52,487 nt of DNA from Methylobacter sp. Its GTDB lineage: Bacteria > Pseudomonadota > Gammaproteobacteria > Methylococcales > Methylomonadaceae. Numbering within the stretch: position 1 is the first letter of the stretch; every line of letters begins with the position of its first letter. A program made the translations under genes and the position numbers. The notes beneath the pieces are model-generated. The model was given only the letters and a program-made list of their open reading frames with translations, had not been told where the DNA came from and made no database searches. Below, piece by piece: positions 5,887 to 34,225 of the stretch. Location of the stretch: positions 1 through 52,487 of the forward strand of contig JAUXXQ010000211.1 of assembly GCA_030684815.1 (NCBI GenBank). Reading direction: 5' to 3'.

Positions 5887-7152
5887 TTGTTTGATCGTCC
5901 CGAATCGGGTGAACGGGCTGTTCTCGTTCATCTGGCACTCCGTTCCATGCAGGAAGATATTTTAGAATTAAAAGAGTTGGCCAAATCAGCTGGAACCGAT
6001 CCGGTCTACGTGCTGACAGGTAGCCGCAAAAAACCTGACGCCAAATTTTTTATCGGTAAAGGCAAGCTTGAAGAGCTTAAAGTCATTATCGAAACCTATG
6101 AAGCCGACATTGTCTTATTCAATCACCCGCTTTCACCCAGCCAGGAAAGGAATCTTGAAGGTTATTTAGGTGTCCGCGTGGTCGACAGGAACGGCCTGAT
6201 TCTGGATATTTTCGCCCAGCGCGCACAAACCTTTGAAGGCAAGTTACAGGTTGAACTGGCGCAATTGCAGCATTTGTCGACCCGGCTGGTGCGCGGCTGG
6301 ACGCATTTGGAGCGGCAAAAAGGCGGTATCGGCTTGCGCGGGCCGGGCGAAACTCAGCTGGAAACCGATCGGCGTTTATTGAGTTTACGTATCAAGCAGA
6401 TTCAGCAGCGCCTGGATAAAGTCGACAAACAGCGGCATCAAGGCCGCAGCAAACGAAAAAAAGCCGAAGTGCCGTCGGTGTCTTTGGTCGGCTATACCAA
6501 TGCCGGTAAATCAACCTTGTTTAATGCGCTGACCGGCGCCGATATTTACGTCGCCGATCAGTTGTTTGCGACCTTGGATCCGACTTTGCGCAGTTGTCCG
6601 TTGCCCAATAATAGCGAGGTTGTGCTGGCCGATACCGTGGGTTTTATTCGGCATTTGCCGCATGAGCTAGTGGCGGCGTTTAAATCCACCTTGCAGGAAG
6701 TCAGTGAAGCGGATTTGTTGCTGCATGTGATTGATGCCAGCAGCGATGACCGGGTCGAGACCATTTATCAGGTTAATCAGGTGCTTGAAGATATTGAGGC
6801 CAATGAAGTCAGGCAGCTTGAAGTGTTCAATAAAATCGACCTGTTGCCGGATATTCAGCCGAAAATTGAGCGCGATGATGTCGGTAATCCAACGCGGGTC
6901 TGGCTATCCGCCGAGACCGGCGTCGGTGTCGATTTGCTTTATCAGGCACTGTCGGAACTGTTTGCCAATACCAAAGTCAAAAGAATCTGTCATTTGCAGC
7001 CGGATCAAGGCGACATCAGAGCCAAATTATTTGCTTGCGCCAAAATCATCAGCGAGAAAACCGATGAATTTGGCGGCTGTGAATTGGTCGTCGAAATGGA
7101 CACCAAATATTTGGGCTTACTAAAATCGGTTGAGGTTTCGGATATCACCTAA
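5887..7152 (+). CDS. hflX: Ribosome-associated GTPase HflX
   Basis: This 421-residue protein begins with TTG; the N-terminus MFDRPESGERAVLVH lines up with other HflX proteins (E. coli MFDRYDAGEQAVLVH), which decides the start. The N-terminal HflX domain (about 1-190, with GPGETQLETDRR) is followed by the G domain: G1 GYTNAGKST (202-210), G3 DTVGFI, G4 NKID. HflX binds the 50S subunit and splits stalled or hibernating 70S ribosomes. The length equals that of close homologues (about 426). Confidence 0.96.
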   Translation: MFDRPESGERAVLVHLALRSMQEDILELKELAKSAGTDPVYVLTGSRKKPDAKFFIGKGKLEELKVIIETYEADIVLFNHPLSPSQERNLEGYLGVRVVDRNGLILDIFAQRAQTFEGKLQVELAQLQHLSTRLVRGWTHLERQKGGIGLRGPGETQLETDRRLLSLRIKQIQQRLDKVDKQRHQGRSKRKKAEVPSVSLVGYTNAGKSTLFNALTGADIYVADQLFATLDPTLRSCPLPNNSEVVLADTVGFIRHLPHELVAAFKSTLQEVSEADLLLHVIDASSDDRVETIYQVNQVLEDIEANEVRQLEVFNKIDLLPDIQPKIERDDVGNPTRVWLSAETGVGVDLLYQALSELFANTKVKRICHLQPDQGDIRAKLFACAKIISEKTDEFGGCELVVEMDTKYLGLLKSVEVSDIT

Positions 7153-7200
7153 TTTCCTCGCGTCGCTTATAATACCGCCCAATTTTAACCAATTTTCTCA

Positions 7201-10131
7201 ATGGCACTTTCACCCATGGAACAGTTTATCCCCGGCCAACGCTGGATCAGTAACACCGAATCAGAGCTTGGTTTAGGCCTTATTCTTGAAGCGGTACACA
7301 AGCGCGTCACCGTGCTTTTTTTAGCTTGTGACGAAAAACGTATCTACGCACAAGATAACGCACCGTTAACGCGGGTGCGTTTTTCCGCAGGCGATGTGAT
7401 CGAATCGATTGATGAAGAAAAAGTCACCGTCACCGCTTTGACTGAACAGGACGGCTTGATTACTTATTTGGGCAAAAACGAGTTGGGTGAGGAAGTCGAA
7501 CTCGATGAAGTCGAATTAAACCATCATATTCAATTCAATAAACCCCAAGACCGGCTGTTTATCGGCCAGGTTGATCCTACCGCCTGGTTTTTGCTGCGCT
7601 ATGAAACCTGGCTCCGATTGCAGCAACATCAACAATCGCCGGTTAAAGGCTTATTGGGTGGGCGCGCTTCGCTGATTCCGCATCAGTTGTTTATTGCCCA
7701 CGAATCGGCTAACCGGTCGGCGCCACGCATCATGCTGGCGGATGAAGTGGGCCTTGGTAAAACCATTGAGGCCGGGTTGATTTTGCATCATCGGCTGATT
7801 AACGGCTTGAGCAAGCGGGTGTTGATTATCGTACCGGAAACGCTGTTGCATCAATGGCTGGTGGAAATGTTGCGGCGCTTTAATCTGCGTTTTAGTATTT
7901 TTGATGAAGCGCGCTGTCTCGACACTTATGCCGAAGACGATATGCTCGCCGACGCCGATGAAGTCGATAACACAGGCGATAATCCGTTTTTAACCGAACA
8001 ATTGATACTGTGCAGCCAAGGCTTTTTTTCCAACTATCCGCGCCGCCAGCAACAGGCGATAGCCGCCGGTTGGGATATGGTGATCGTCGACGAGGCGCAC
8101 CATTTGCAATGGAGCGAACAAGCGCCCAGCGCCGATTATCTGTTTGTTGAGCAATTGGCGCAAATTTCCCCCAGCCTTATTTTATTGACGGCAACGCCCG
8201 AACAATTGGGCAAGGAAAGTCATTTCGCCCGTTTACGCTTGCTCGATCCCGACCGCTTTTACAGTTTTGCCGCCTTCGTCGAAGAAGAGCGTTTATTTGA
8301 GCCGGTAGCTAACGCGGCTAAATCGCTGTTGGCGGAAGAAGCGCTGGATGAAGCGGCACAGCAACATTTAACCGCGCTGCTTAAAGATGACAATGTCGAT
8401 GGCTTGCTGAAAAATGTTATCGCCAGGGATGGTGTGTATGCCGCAAACCTGCCGGGAGCAGGTGCGGCAAATGATGCTGAAAAATCGGCGGCAGCGCGTG
8501 ATGCGTTGGTGAATGTGCTGCTCGACCATCACGGCACCGGGCGGATTTTGTTCCGCAATTCGCGGCAAACCGTGCAAGGTTTTCCTGAGCGGGAGCGTTA
8601 TGGCTATGCTTTAAGCGGATCGGCGAACAGCGATGATTTGCAACAAGACCCGCGTTATTTGTGGCTGGTGGATAAGGTTAAACAATTGGCCGGTCAAAAA
8701 GCCTTGGTGATCTGCAAACAGGCACAGACCGCGATTGATTTCGAACAAGCGCTGAAAAACCGCGCCGGTATTGCTTCGGCGGTGTTCCATGAGGGCATGA
8801 GTATTATTGAGCGCGATAGGGCGGCGGCGTATTTTGCTGATCCTGACAGCTCGGCACGCTTGTTGATTTGTTCTGAAATTGGCAGTGAAGGCCGCAATTT
8901 CCAGTTTGTGCATCATTTGATTTTGATGGATTTGCCGACCAACCCCGATTTATTACAGCAACGTATCGGCCGTCTTGACCGTATCGGGCAAAAATATATT
9001 ATTCAGATTCATGTGCCCTATCTGGAGCAGACCGATAACGCGGTGCTGTACCGCTGGTATGATGAAGGCCTCAATGCTTTTGTCTGTAATAGCTCATCGG
9101 CGCAGCGGGTTGCCGATGTTTTGCATGATGAGTTGGCGGCGGTTTTAGCGAATAATATCGCCAGGGATGGTGTGTATGCCGCAAACCTGCCGGGAGCAGG
9201 TGCGGCGCAGGCCGAGATTGACGCACTTATCGCAAAAACCCAGTCACTCAGCAGTGAGCTGGAAACCCAAATGCATAATGGCCGCGACCAATTGCTGGAG
9301 TTAAATTCCTGCCGCAAGGAATTGGCTAGCGAACTGATTGGGCAGCTGAATGCGTATGAAAAAGAAGGCGTGTTGTGGCCGTATATGGAAGATGTGTTTG
9401 AATGCTACGGCGTCGACACCGAGTTTCATTCGCCCAATTGTTTTATAGTGCGTCCTAGCGATCATTTGCGCGTGTCGCATTTTCCCGGTTTAACCGAAGA
9501 CGGTATGACCCTCACCGTCGACCGACAGATTGCGCTGGCGCGTGAAGACATGCAGTTTATGACCTGGGAGCATCCATTGGTGACTGCGTCGATGGATATG
9601 GTGCTGTCTTCCGAAACCGGCAATGCCGCAATCAGCGTGATTAAACACAATGATCTTAAAGGCGGCCAGTTCTTGTTGGAGTGTTTGTTTATTGTCGAAT
9701 GTAGTGCGCCTGCCGAATTGCAAATTGGCCGCTTTTTGCCGCACACGCCGATTCGGGTGTTGATAGATCAAAACCGGAAAGATTTAACGGCGGATATTGA
9801 GCATCGCGATTTGCTTGACGCCGGTATCAAGTTTGATAAGCACAAAATTATCGCCTTTTTGAGCAGCCAACGGCCTTATTTGATTAATATTCTGGGCGTA
9901 GCTGAACAAACCGCTAAAGCTGCAATGCAGCAGCTGGTTGAGCAGGCCACCCAGGCTATGTTGGAATCGCTTGGCAATGAGATCAAGCGCTTGGTTAGGC
10001 TGAAAAAAGTCAATCCGACCATTAGGACTGAAGAAATCGAGCAGTTAAAGGACATGACTATGTTGGCGCATGAAAACATCCAAGCCGCGCAGTTAAGGCT
10101 GGATGCGGTCAGATTTGTGATTACCAGTTGA
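7201..10131 (+). CDS. rapA: RNA polymerase-associated ATPase RapA (SWI2/SNF2), with two identical in-frame inserts
   Basis: This 976-residue Swi2/Snf2-type ATPase recycles RNA polymerase. After the N-terminal Tudor-like domains come Walker A (ADEVGLGKTIEAG), Walker B (VDEAHHLQW), and in the second RecA lobe SEIGSEGRNFQ and QQRIGRLDRIGQ. The C-terminal RapA domain includes FITWEHPL-like sequence (FMTWEHPLVTASMD). Unusual: residues 407-423 and 653-669 are both IARDGVYAANLPGAGAA, encoded by two identical 51-bp segments absent from the E. coli protein at the matching loops. The first falls in the insert between the ATPase lobes and the second after the second lobe, so the core fold should survive. 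It starts 48 bases after hflX. Confidence 0.95.
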   Translation: MALSPMEQFIPGQRWISNTESELGLGLILEAVHKRVTVLFLACDEKRIYAQDNAPLTRVRFSAGDVIESIDEEKVTVTALTEQDGLITYLGKNELGEEVELDEVELNHHIQFNKPQDRLFIGQVDPTAWFLLRYETWLRLQQHQQSPVKGLLGGRASLIPHQLFIAHESANRSAPRIMLADEVGLGKTIEAGLILHHRLINGLSKRVLIIVPETLLHQWLVEMLRRFNLRFSIFDEARCLDTYAEDDMLADADEVDNTGDNPFLTEQLILCSQGFFSNYPRRQQQAIAAGWDMVIVDEAHHLQWSEQAPSADYLFVEQLAQISPSLILLTATPEQLGKESHFARLRLLDPDRFYSFAAFVEEERLFEPVANAAKSLLAEEALDEAAQQHLTALLKDDNVDGLLKNVIARDGVYAANLPGAGAANDAEKSAAARDALVNVLLDHHGTGRILFRNSRQTVQGFPERERYGYALSGSANSDDLQQDPRYLWLVDKVKQLAGQKALVICKQAQTAIDFEQALKNRAGIASAVFHEGMSIIERDRAAAYFADPDSSARLLICSEIGSEGRNFQFVHHLILMDLPTNPDLLQQRIGRLDRIGQKYIIQIHVPYLEQTDNAVLYRWYDEGLNAFVCNSSSAQRVADVLHDELAAVLANNIARDGVYAANLPGAGAAQAEIDALIAKTQSLSSELETQMHNGRDQLLELNSCRKELASELIGQLNAYEKEGVLWPYMEDVFECYGVDTEFHSPNCFIVRPSDHLRVSHFPGLTEDGMTLTVDRQIALAREDMQFMTWEHPLVTASMDMVLSSETGNAAISVIKHNDLKGGQFLLECLFIVECSAPAELQIGRFLPHTPIRVLIDQNRKDLTADIEHRDLLDAGIKFDKHKIIAFLSSQRPYLINILGVAEQTAKAAMQQLVEQATQAMLESLGNEIKRLVRLKKVNPTIRTEEIEQLKDMTMLAHENIQAAQLRLDAVRFVITS
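8418..8468 (+). repeat. Palindromic insert, copy 1, in rapA
   Basis: This 51-bp stretch is identical to 9156-9206. Its 3' half folds into a hairpin: ACCTGC and GCAGGT around a 5-base loop, extended by CCGC/GCGG with a 2-base bulge. It is a multiple of three and keeps the rapA frame open. Confidence 0.9.
9156..9206 (+). repeat. Palindromic insert, copy 2, in rapA
   Basis: Identical over 51 bp to 8418-8468 and in the same codon phase, 738 bp farther on. Flanking bases differ, so only the element itself is shared. Confidence 0.9.
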
Positions 10132-10145
10132 AGTTGTAATAAATT

Positions 10146-10976
10146 ATGATAAATATCGGCAAAATAAATAAACTGAACGTGGTTAAACAACAAGGTGCCG
10201 ATGTCTATCTTGACGACGGCACTTCGGGCAAAGTGCTGCTGGCGGACAGACGTCTGCCTGCAAACTGCGAGGTCGGCGACAGCCTGGATGTTTTCGTTTA
10301 CGTGGATTCGGACGGCCATCTGGCCGCTACCAGCAGAAAACCGTTAGCCCAAGTAGGCGATATTGCCTGGCTGAAAGTGGTGGCGCTCAATTATGTCGGC
10401 GCGTTCCTGGATTGGGGGCTGCCAAAAGATTTGTTGGTGCCGTTTAGCGAGCAATATCACGAAATGGAAGTGGGGCGGTCTTATCTGGTCAGGGTGTTTT
10501 TGGATGAGCAAAACCGCATTGCCGCAACCACCAAGATTGATAAAACGCTGAGCGATGAATCGGTTGATTTTGAAGTCGGGCAAAAAGTGTCGCTGATTAT
10601 TGCCGGCACCTCCGATTTGGGTATTAAAGCCATCATTAACAACAGCCATTGGGGTATGTTGTATCAAAACGAGCTGTATCAGCCGGTCAAAAAAGGCCAG
10701 AAACTGGACGGCTACATCAAGCAAATACGGGAAGACCAAAAAATCGATCTCAGTTTGCAGCAGCCGGGCTACGGCAAAGTCGTCTCGCTGACCGACAGCA
10801 TTATAGCCAAGCTGAAAGCCAATGACGGCGAGCTGATGCTCAGCGATAAAAGCCCGCCGGAAGCCATTTATGCCGCATTCGGCGTCAGCAAAAAAGTATT
10901 TAAGCAGGCTATCGGCGCGCTGTATAAACAGCAGGTCATTACTATGGATAAAACTGGGATAAAACTGGTCGATTAA
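10146..10976 (+). CDS. CvfB-family S1-domain RNA-binding protein
   Basis: This 276-residue protein has the CvfB plan: successive S1-like beta-barrel domains (starting MINIGKINKLNVVK; second around VGDIAWLKVVALNYVGAFLDWG; third around KKGQKLDGYIKQIREDQKIDLSL) and a C-terminal winged-helix domain (SPPEAIYAAFGVSKKVFKQA). CvfB proteins bind RNA and affect gene expression in staphylococci; the role in proteobacteria is poorly defined. It follows rapA after 14 bases and may be co-transcribed with it. A bidirectional terminator lies about 100 bases past its stop. Confidence 0.85.
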   Translation: MINIGKINKLNVVKQQGADVYLDDGTSGKVLLADRRLPANCEVGDSLDVFVYVDSDGHLAATSRKPLAQVGDIAWLKVVALNYVGAFLDWGLPKDLLVPFSEQYHEMEVGRSYLVRVFLDEQNRIAATTKIDKTLSDESVDFEVGQKVSLIIAGTSDLGIKAIINNSHWGMLYQNELYQPVKKGQKLDGYIKQIREDQKIDLSLQQPGYGKVVSLTDSIIAKLKANDGELMLSDKSPPEAIYAAFGVSKKVFKQAIGALYKQQVITMDKTGIKLVD

Positions 10977-32589: not shown

Positions 32590-33009
32590 ATGAATAAAAT
32601 ACGTGTATTGATTATCGATGACTCGTTGTTAATCAGAAAGGTGTTGACGGAAATCCTAAATTCATCTCCTGATATTGAGGTGGTCGGTACTGCAGAAGAT
32701 CCGCTTATTGCCAGGGAAATGATTAAGGAATTAAACCCGGATGTATTAACTTTAGATATTGAAATGCCGCGTATGGATGGAATAACCTTTTTACGTAACC
32801 TGATGCGCTTGAGGCCTATGCCTGTTGTAATGATTTCTGTATTGACGGAGAGCAATGCTGAAGTGACATTGACTGCTTTGGAATTGGGTGCGGTAGATTT
32901 TATCGCTAAACCCGTAGTTGATGTAGAAAACACATTAAATGATTATGCTGAGGATATTATTGACAAGGTCAAAGTAGCGTCTCAAGCTAACATTAGACGG
33001 CTGACATAA
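32590..33009 (+). CDS. Receiver-only copy of CheB
   Basis: 139 residues, nearly all a receiver domain. It aligns with the first 139 residues of the full CheB directly downstream almost without gaps; the two share, for example, [12 protein letters not shown] and [10 protein letters not shown]. The acidic pair (IIDDS), phospho-aspartate (LDIEMP) and lysine (AKP) are intact, so it should accept phosphate from CheA. It has no methylesterase domain and stops soon after the receiver. It looks like a tandem partial duplication that was kept. Confidence 0.85.
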
Positions 33010-33097: not shown

Positions 33098-34225
33098 ATG
33101 GGTAAGATACGCGTATTAGTTATTGATGATTCAGCATTAATCAGAAAAATACTGACTGAAGTTTTAAGTTCGTCACCGGATATCGAAGTTGTTGGTGCGG
33201 CGGCTGACCCCCTGATTGCCAGGGAGATGATTAAGCAATTAAATCCGGATGTATTGACGCTGGATATTGAAATGCCGCACATGGATGGGATAACTTTCCT
33301 AAGCAACTTGATGCGTTTAAGGCCGACCCCGGTTGTGATGATTTCCACTCTGACCGAACATGGTGCAGAGGCAACCTTGAATGCCCTGGCACTAGGGGCC
33401 GTCGATTTTATTGCCAAACCTAGAGTTGATGTTGTTAATACGCTGAATGAGTATGCCGAGGAAATTATTTCCAAAGTTATTAGCGCAGCGCAAGCTAAAG
33501 TAGGCAATCTTTATAATCGGGCGGTCAAGCCGCCTAAGACCCAGCCTGTCGCAGCAACGGTTTCTGATGTATCAGAAAAACATTCTGTCGATGTAATTCT
33601 GAAAGCCGCACCGATAAAAAACCATATTAGCCCCACTAATAAGATTATTGCCTTGGGCGCGTCAACAGGAGGGACTGAAGCGATTAAAGCCGTTGTTAAA
33701 GGTTTTCCAGCCGATACGCCGCCTATTTTAATTACTCAGCATTTGCCCGCAGCTTTTAGCGACTCATTTGTTCGCCATATTGACCTTGCCACGGCAATGT
33801 CGGCCTGCATTCCAAAAGATGGGCAACAGGTTGAGCCTGGTAATATTTATCTTTCACCAGGCGACAAGCATATGCTGGTGATCAGAGAAGGCGGTAAATA
33901 TTTCATTCAATTGAATGATGGCTTGCCGGTTAATCGCCATAAACCTGCCGTTGATGTGTTGTTTCGTTCAGTTTCGCAATGCGCCGGTGCGAATGCGATT
34001 GCTGTGTTGTTGACAGGTATGGGTGCAGATGGAGCGATGGGCATGAAAGAAATGCATGATGCCGGTGCTAAAACAGTGATTCAGGATGAGCAATCCAGCG
34101 TGGTTTGGGGAATGCCTGGCGCCGCATTCAAGTTGGGATGTACGGACTATGTAGTGTCCTTAGATGAGGTTGCGAATAAGGTTTTGAGCCTAGTTAAATC
34201 TGGCGGTATTGGCAAGGCCAGCTAG
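33098..34225 (+). CDS. cheB: Chemoreceptor glutamate methylesterase CheB
   Basis: 375 residues with an N-terminal receiver (LDIEMPHMDG, AKP), a linker of about 40 residues, and a C-terminal methylesterase domain. The catalytic Ser, His and Asp lie in LGASTGGTEAIK, ITQHLPAAFS and LLTGMGADGA. CheB removes methyl groups from receptors when phosphorylated. It follows the receiver-only copy by about 90 bases and ends in a terminator-like hairpin. Confidence 0.96.
   Translation: MGKIRVLVIDDSALIRKILTEVLSSSPDIEVVGAAADPLIAREMIKQLNPDVLTLDIEMPHMDGITFLSNLMRLRPTPVVMISTLTEHGAEATLNALALGAVDFIAKPRVDVVNTLNEYAEEIISKVISAAQAKVGNLYNRAVKPPKTQPVAATVSDVSEKHSVDVILKAAPIKNHISPTNKIIALGASTGGTEAIKAVVKGFPADTPPILITQHLPAAFSDSFVRHIDLATAMSACIPKDGQQVEPGNIYLSPGDKHMLVIREGGKYFIQLNDGLPVNRHKPAVDVLFRSVSQCAGANAIAVLLTGMGADGAMGMKEMHDAGAKTVIQDEQSSVVWGMPGAAFKLGCTDYVVSLDEVANKVLSLVKSGGIGKAS

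Follow-up and report, generated by a model that had tools for sequence, protein, structure and literature searches.

The window, that is, the whole stretch of 52,487 nucleotides analysed here, belongs to a 4.29 Mb genome of Methylobacter sp. and carries rapA on the forward strand at 7201..10131, an intact ORF of 976 aa matched by the NCBIfam model PRK04914 (RapA) with 1140.5 bits over a 926-aa piece. Two 51-bp insertions lie in frame (phase 0) on the same strand of this gene, at 8419..8469 and 9157..9207; each scores 82.8 bits against R1, a covariance model built from an alignment of eight copies of the element, and both encode the peptide IARDGVYAANLPGAGAA, at residues 407-423 and 653-669, respectively. 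A preliminary description of this DNA had reported that 8418-8468 and 9156-9206 are identical over 51/51 bases and in the same codon phase of the RapA ORF, and both statements hold; its borders for the unit do not, since comparison with orthologues places the true unit one base to the right, the initial T of the former span being part of the target and the 51st base of the inserted unit differing (A vs G) between the two copies. At the first site, an insert-free orthologue reads AAT CTG|AAT GAT. The target bases of copy 1, identified with the flank logo of the family, are TGTT before it (8415..8418; the family's left target is YTWT|) and AATG after it (8470..8473, with the conserved G at +4), both on the forward strand, and the right-hand bases are the same in the insert-free orthologue L364. 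Relative to most orthologues whose DNA was compared, the second site shows a net gain of 48 bp, hence one codon is missing beside the insert. The identity of the two inserts is far above chance; other direct-repeat pairs of at least 20 nt reported in 7000-10600 are 71-76% identical. Elsewhere in the window there is a 300-nt direct repeat (32590-32889 and 33098-33397, 72% identical, start-to-start spacing 508).

As originally stated, E. coli RapA has no counterpart of the inserts, its alignment showing gaps at both places. The AlphaFold model of RapA is of low confidence (mean pLDDT 57.5), and it would place most of each insert in low-confidence coil between predicted helices; the peptide is probably without function of its own in RapA.

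The consensus of the 51-bp element is ATCGCCAGGGATGGTGTGTATGCCGC-AA-(stem)-CGGGA-(stem)-GCGGCG. Each repeat had been said to fold into a hairpin, and fold it does, but the strand forms two: in copy 1, a first hairpin with a CGCCA / TGGTG stem and a GGGA loop (8421..8434, forward strand), supported by the predicted fold and by pair counts, and a second, longer one with a GCCGC..GCGGC outer stem, an ACCTGC/GCAGGT inner stem and a CGGGA loop (8440..8468, forward strand), supported by the predicted fold and by covariation. The fold energy of one copy alone is weak evidence (-25.6 kcal/mol, z -2.24, with 6 of 200 shuffles folding equally well), and the compensatory changes across copies are strong evidence: over 150 aligned copies (118 distinct) 97.6% of cells pair and 11 of 16 pairs change on both sides, which 0/500 shuffles reach, the covariation score being 0.301 against at most 0.064 in slid controls. 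The 150-copy alignment was fitted to the covariance model, which favours this result; in the unfitted alignment of eight copies the covariation score still beats the shuffles (0/500 reach it), whereas the number of pair types does not (443/500).

Across 80 named RapA loci, 40 of which were compared at the DNA level, the first site is filled in five (one with two tandem copies) and insert-free in 75, and the second is filled in one; among aligned RapA sequences, copy 2 is present only in the window's genome and in its sister, Methylobacter sp. isolate C3_concoct.bin.75 (L074/G015), whose RapA is 98% identical. A third site, near residue 500, holds the element in antisense and in another frame in 10/80 loci, including two Methylovulum MAGs; the element is therefore not limited to one frame. 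Throughout the 713 kb of RapA loci, all 19 R1 matches fall inside rapA. One could imagine an old functional protein repeat kept by selection, given that the frame is kept and that nearly the same peptide occurs at site 1 in several species; the preliminary description had itself named the same peptide at both places in all close RapA orthologues, with diverged DNA, as what would refute a mobile insert. The occupancy of the two sites is the reverse of this, the stem bases covary, and the same DNA recurs in dozens of unrelated genes and outside genes, so that an old repeat is ruled out for practical purposes.

Recent spread or gene conversion had been suggested instead, and the comparison among hosts bears this out. 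Site-1 inserts differ by 0-2 of 51 bases (96-100% identity) between hosts whose rapA differs by about 4-18%. At site 3 insert similarity is independent of host relatedness, for the genes of L075 and L090 differ by 9% and their inserts by 29%, while those of L075 and L082 differ by 15% and their inserts by 4%. Both patterns are evidence that insertion or conversion has recurred at preferred sites, yet the low divergence at site 1 could come from gene conversion or segment transfer instead. That copies at shared sites stem altogether from conversion or from transfer of gene segments between species, with no fresh insertion, seems rather unlikely. Site-1 inserts of different species do share one stem variant, as this would predict; but neither process can make first copies at new sites, the target motif is found in most empty orthologues, and stem variants that differ between close relatives while the flanks are vertical are seen at site 3, though not at site 1. 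Conversion may nonetheless homogenise existing copies.

Searches of the genome and its relatives, which the preliminary description had proposed, found the unit at many unrelated loci. In the window's genome R1 gives 27 matches at E<=7.7e-4 and 30 at E<=1, although the weakest 8 or so of the 27 look, as judged by sequence, degenerate or of a sister type rather than full members. A pattern search allowing up to 3 mismatches added a third copy, which lies in the 5' part of leuS and shares the frame of the rapA copies. Further pattern searches brought up copies at the 3' end of pyrB (antisense), in prlC and yhdP-like genes and, as a tandem pair, next to dgkA; leuS, pyrB and dgkA were named by sequence reading, yhdP and prlC with NCBIfam support. 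The pyrB copy (L026, G000:C56:70815-70865) supplies a C-terminal extension and has one extra base.

All 23 Methylobacter genomes have R1 matches at E<=0.01, from 2 to 93 each (G001 93, G021 41, G019 2). In the family, at least 78 of 237 genomes, from at least 20 of 29 genera, have a match at E<=1e-4; the order yields at least 80 of 311 genomes and an even draw of the class at least 16 of 369, three of which belong to a single distant genus and have 6-11 weaker relatives apiece. These are lower bounds, some 25, 19 and 16 candidates per genome having been scored in the family, order and class searches, respectively. The expansion of the element lies in Methylobacter. Carriage by phages or plasmids was not detected, an exact 22-base core having 0 matches in viral contigs and a 60-base query none in plasmids; Rfam gave nothing relevant at four element loci, and the literature matches listed, limited to open-licence PMC papers, contain no paper on such an element in Methylobacter.

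For the analysis of sites, 216 R1 matches (the best 150 of 164 and 66 of 76, the 14 weakest of the 164 being left out) were reduced to 170 arrays by dropping duplicate copies, so that the set is mostly top-scoring. Coding status was called by a codon-score rule, not from gene annotation; it classes 87 of the 170 arrays, in 42 protein clusters, as coding, where an earlier, stricter threshold had called 7, and leaves 83 as intergenic or undecided. With only 24 codons ahead of it, the leuS copy (L003) does not pass this rule and was included manually when empty sites were tested. NCBIfam models were run on 40 of 49 representative ORFs. Hosts above the curated cut-offs include RapA, ValRS, PurH, AroA, DapC, NadD, SufD, MinC, oligopeptidase A, a Sua5/TsaC-type threonylcarbamoyladenylate synthase, GlnE, RNase R, TrmJ, RecO, ComEC and a nitrate-type ABC ATPase, among others; YhdP, LptD, RsmJ, a lytic transglycosylase and DNA polymerase III chi remain below them, often because the ORF is cut, and six of the 40 ORFs (L184, L186, L023, L282, L261 and L196) obtained no family. 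Among the matches listed for the 40 host proteins, no model covers only the insert. A lytic transglycosylase-like gene (L200) carries copies at two sites and in two frames, its relatives L046, L217 and L060 holding one or the other.

The preliminary description had proposed a coding-compatible element, and in-frame copies in unrelated genes agree with it; confinement to one frame, or to genes, does not hold, for intergenic copies exist, for instance a tandem pair between two ORFs at L010. If the last base is taken as G, 149/149 copies are open in the sense phase-0 frame and 118/149 in all six frames, whilst shuffles of one copy leave all six open in 1432 of 20000. Since 51 is divisible by three and most copies have no stop codon in any of the six frames, insertion into a gene usually adds 17 residues without a break. 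Frame use is nonetheless uneven over 43 independent coding sites, with observed (expected) numbers of 25 (11.1) for S0, 0 (3.9) for S1, 2 (5.8) for S2, 9 (9.7) for A0, 2 (6.6) for A1 and 5 (5.8) for A2 (chi-square over six frames, p 5e-5; sense phase-0 excess, p 1e-5), the expectations coming from a target model for which only 37 flank groups outside the coding class were used as training data. The favoured frame S0 reads IARDGVYAA..., and its excess suggests that, once the element is in place, selection favours peptides which the host protein tolerates; that the mobiliser itself prefers a phase cannot be ruled out.

The mode of insertion is most directly read from empty sites. Joined flanks were searched in three genomes, two of them nearly copy-free, and 40 sites were fetched in addition to 30 loci already to hand; 70 filled copies could be aligned over the junction to an orthologue, in some cases with gaps or to an orthologue that itself has element sequence. 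A filter that admitted only phase-0 frames, and so by construction none of the others, together with inserts of n x 51 bp and joins free of gaps, kept 26 of 32 site keys; in two of these (clusters 3 and 5, ComEC-like and DNA polymerase III chi-like) the orthologue carries element sequence, leaving 24 truly empty. At these 24 coding sites the insert is exactly n x 51 bp, with neither duplication nor loss. T stands at -1 in all 24 filled sequences and in 18 of the 24 empty ones, and G at +4 in 22 and 21, respectively. In the flank logo, which rests on 73 independent groups of flanks (168 of the 170 arrays have enough flank), position -1 is T in 92%, -2 is T or A in 90%, +4 is G in 82% and +5 is G in 3%; the logo is alike in the sense, antisense and not-coding classes. 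A target-site duplication is not apparent in 125 single copies either, where the flanks agree over four bases in none, over three in 4 and over two in 6. As shown by this comparison, insertion is scarless and takes place between T and NNNG, with YTWT|AANG preferred, in both orientations, in and outside genes.

Given that the element begins with ATCG, its own left junction, T|ATCG, fits the target rule, which predicts that an array gains its new copies on the left. The repeat period of tandem arrays is 51 bp. Their 5' copy is usually the nearest to consensus, scoring above the 3' copy in 35 of 46 arrays, with the remaining 11 disagreeing; by flank group the polarity is 17 vs 2, with 5 ties.

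The rapA inserts are very probably copies of a non-autonomous mobile 51-bp palindrome, an inference drawn from sequence alone, no new insertion having been observed. An enzyme acting in trans, as yet unidentified and perhaps a single-strand nuclease or transposase, would recognise the folded strand; arrays would grow because the left end of a resident copy is itself a target; and selection would then retain, for the most part, insertions that fall where they are tolerated and whose frame yields the small, Gly/Ala-rich peptide IARDGVYAASQSGTGAA.

As to the enzyme, the leading guess, tentative as it is, is a Y1 (HUH) transposase of the REP-associated or IS200/IS605 type that cuts the folded single strand and pastes it 3' of a short T-rich target. 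The hairpins, the absent target duplication and the conserved left target fit the peel-and-paste scheme and are shared with IS200/IS605 (PMC6006769), and Y1 genes (PF01797) are matched in 23/23 Methylobacter genomes. On the other hand, the element has no gene within its 51 bp, and its G at +4 lies on the opposite side from the IS608-type target tetranucleotide, a feature that the IS200/IS605 rule, in its published description, leaves unexplained (PMC6006769). Numbers do not track either, G001 having 93 R1 matches and one PF01797 match and G019 two and six. Among the 30 of 141 PF01797 matches checked with R1, none has a clear family copy, and in these 30 loci no link of the element to RAYT-type genes is seen; there is one weak sister-type match and one at chance level. 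The former, L303 (G001:C118), is the only Y1-transposase match of G001, with a sister-type palindrome about 220 bases downstream.

A rolling-circle transposase of the IS91/Helitron-like type (Y2) is a far weaker candidate. It would suit the lack of duplication, the tandem arrays and the hairpin close to the 3' end; yet PF04986 is without match in 15 of the 23 genomes, including the window's genome and G001, so that absence from high-copy genomes makes it unlikely. Equally tentative as the Y1 proposal is the possibility of an undescribed mobility system that recognises one and the same two-sided core, T|NNNG, both in the target and where the element begins on its left, inserting without a scar and building arrays from the left. 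Under such a system the element might amount to a natural, genome-wide peptide-insertion machine in conserved proteins, because the unit comprises 17 codons mostly open in all frames.

Among known systems, the analogy drawn in the preliminary description with the Rickettsia RPEs is apt for behaviour, that is, in-frame palindromes in unrelated genes, although sequences were not compared. RPEs and the Wolbachia WPEs are described as short palindromes in frame in unrelated conserved genes, also outside genes, their inserts being reported as solvent-exposed (PMC3767692, PMC2229807, PMC10969869). The Methylobacter element is likewise palindromic and in frame in 42 protein clusters, with insert-free orthologues; it differs in size and host (51 bp in Methylococcales vs 105-146 bp in Rickettsiales), and target duplication, entered as '?' for RPE in Table 1 of a 2007 review (PMC2229807), is here absent, with the target defined. 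It also resembles the GTAG/CGTC REPs, which are short stem-loops occurring singly or in groups, some inside genes (Opitutus, Thauera, Thioalkalivibrio) and some at gene ends (PMC3733652). Most copies, however, lack the tags, which also speaks against a REP-associated Y1 enzyme: among 125 single copies, each taken with 4 bases of flank at both ends, GTAG occurs in 5 and CGTC in 12. Membership of the tagged REPs was rejected, with GTAG in 3/125 and CGTC in 8/125 within about 8 nt of either end. MITEs (ERIC, Correia/NEMIS, RUP) are similarly non-autonomous and short and may fuse in frame, according to the same review (PMC2229807), but the element lacks target duplication and its ends are two separate hairpins, not one terminal inverted repeat. 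In the way it works the element resembles RPEs and intragenic REPs, and its insertion rule is unusually clear.

The spread of protein-coding palindromes is not yet understood, to judge from the '?' in the 2007 review (PMC2229807); here many empty sites define the insertion rule at single-base resolution, and, since the genus includes cultured strains, the mechanism is testable. In nature the element has also produced a series of conserved enzymes with 17-residue insertions in frame. For gene annotators, the insert peptides are not domains.

Related palindromes of the form CCAKGGATGG..GTATGCCG occur in several distant members of the class (G421, G537 and G635; L384-L392), and the relatives at L389 and L392 directly follow the T-run of a terminator-like stem. 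In the window's own genome, an aminotransferase gene (L008, G000:C38:46934-47097), which I take from sequence reading to be of the cobalamin type, contains two in-frame copies of a larger palindrome of about 102 bp, carrying the motifs CCATGGATGG and GGGTAGGGAACCC and apparently representing a sister repeat family.
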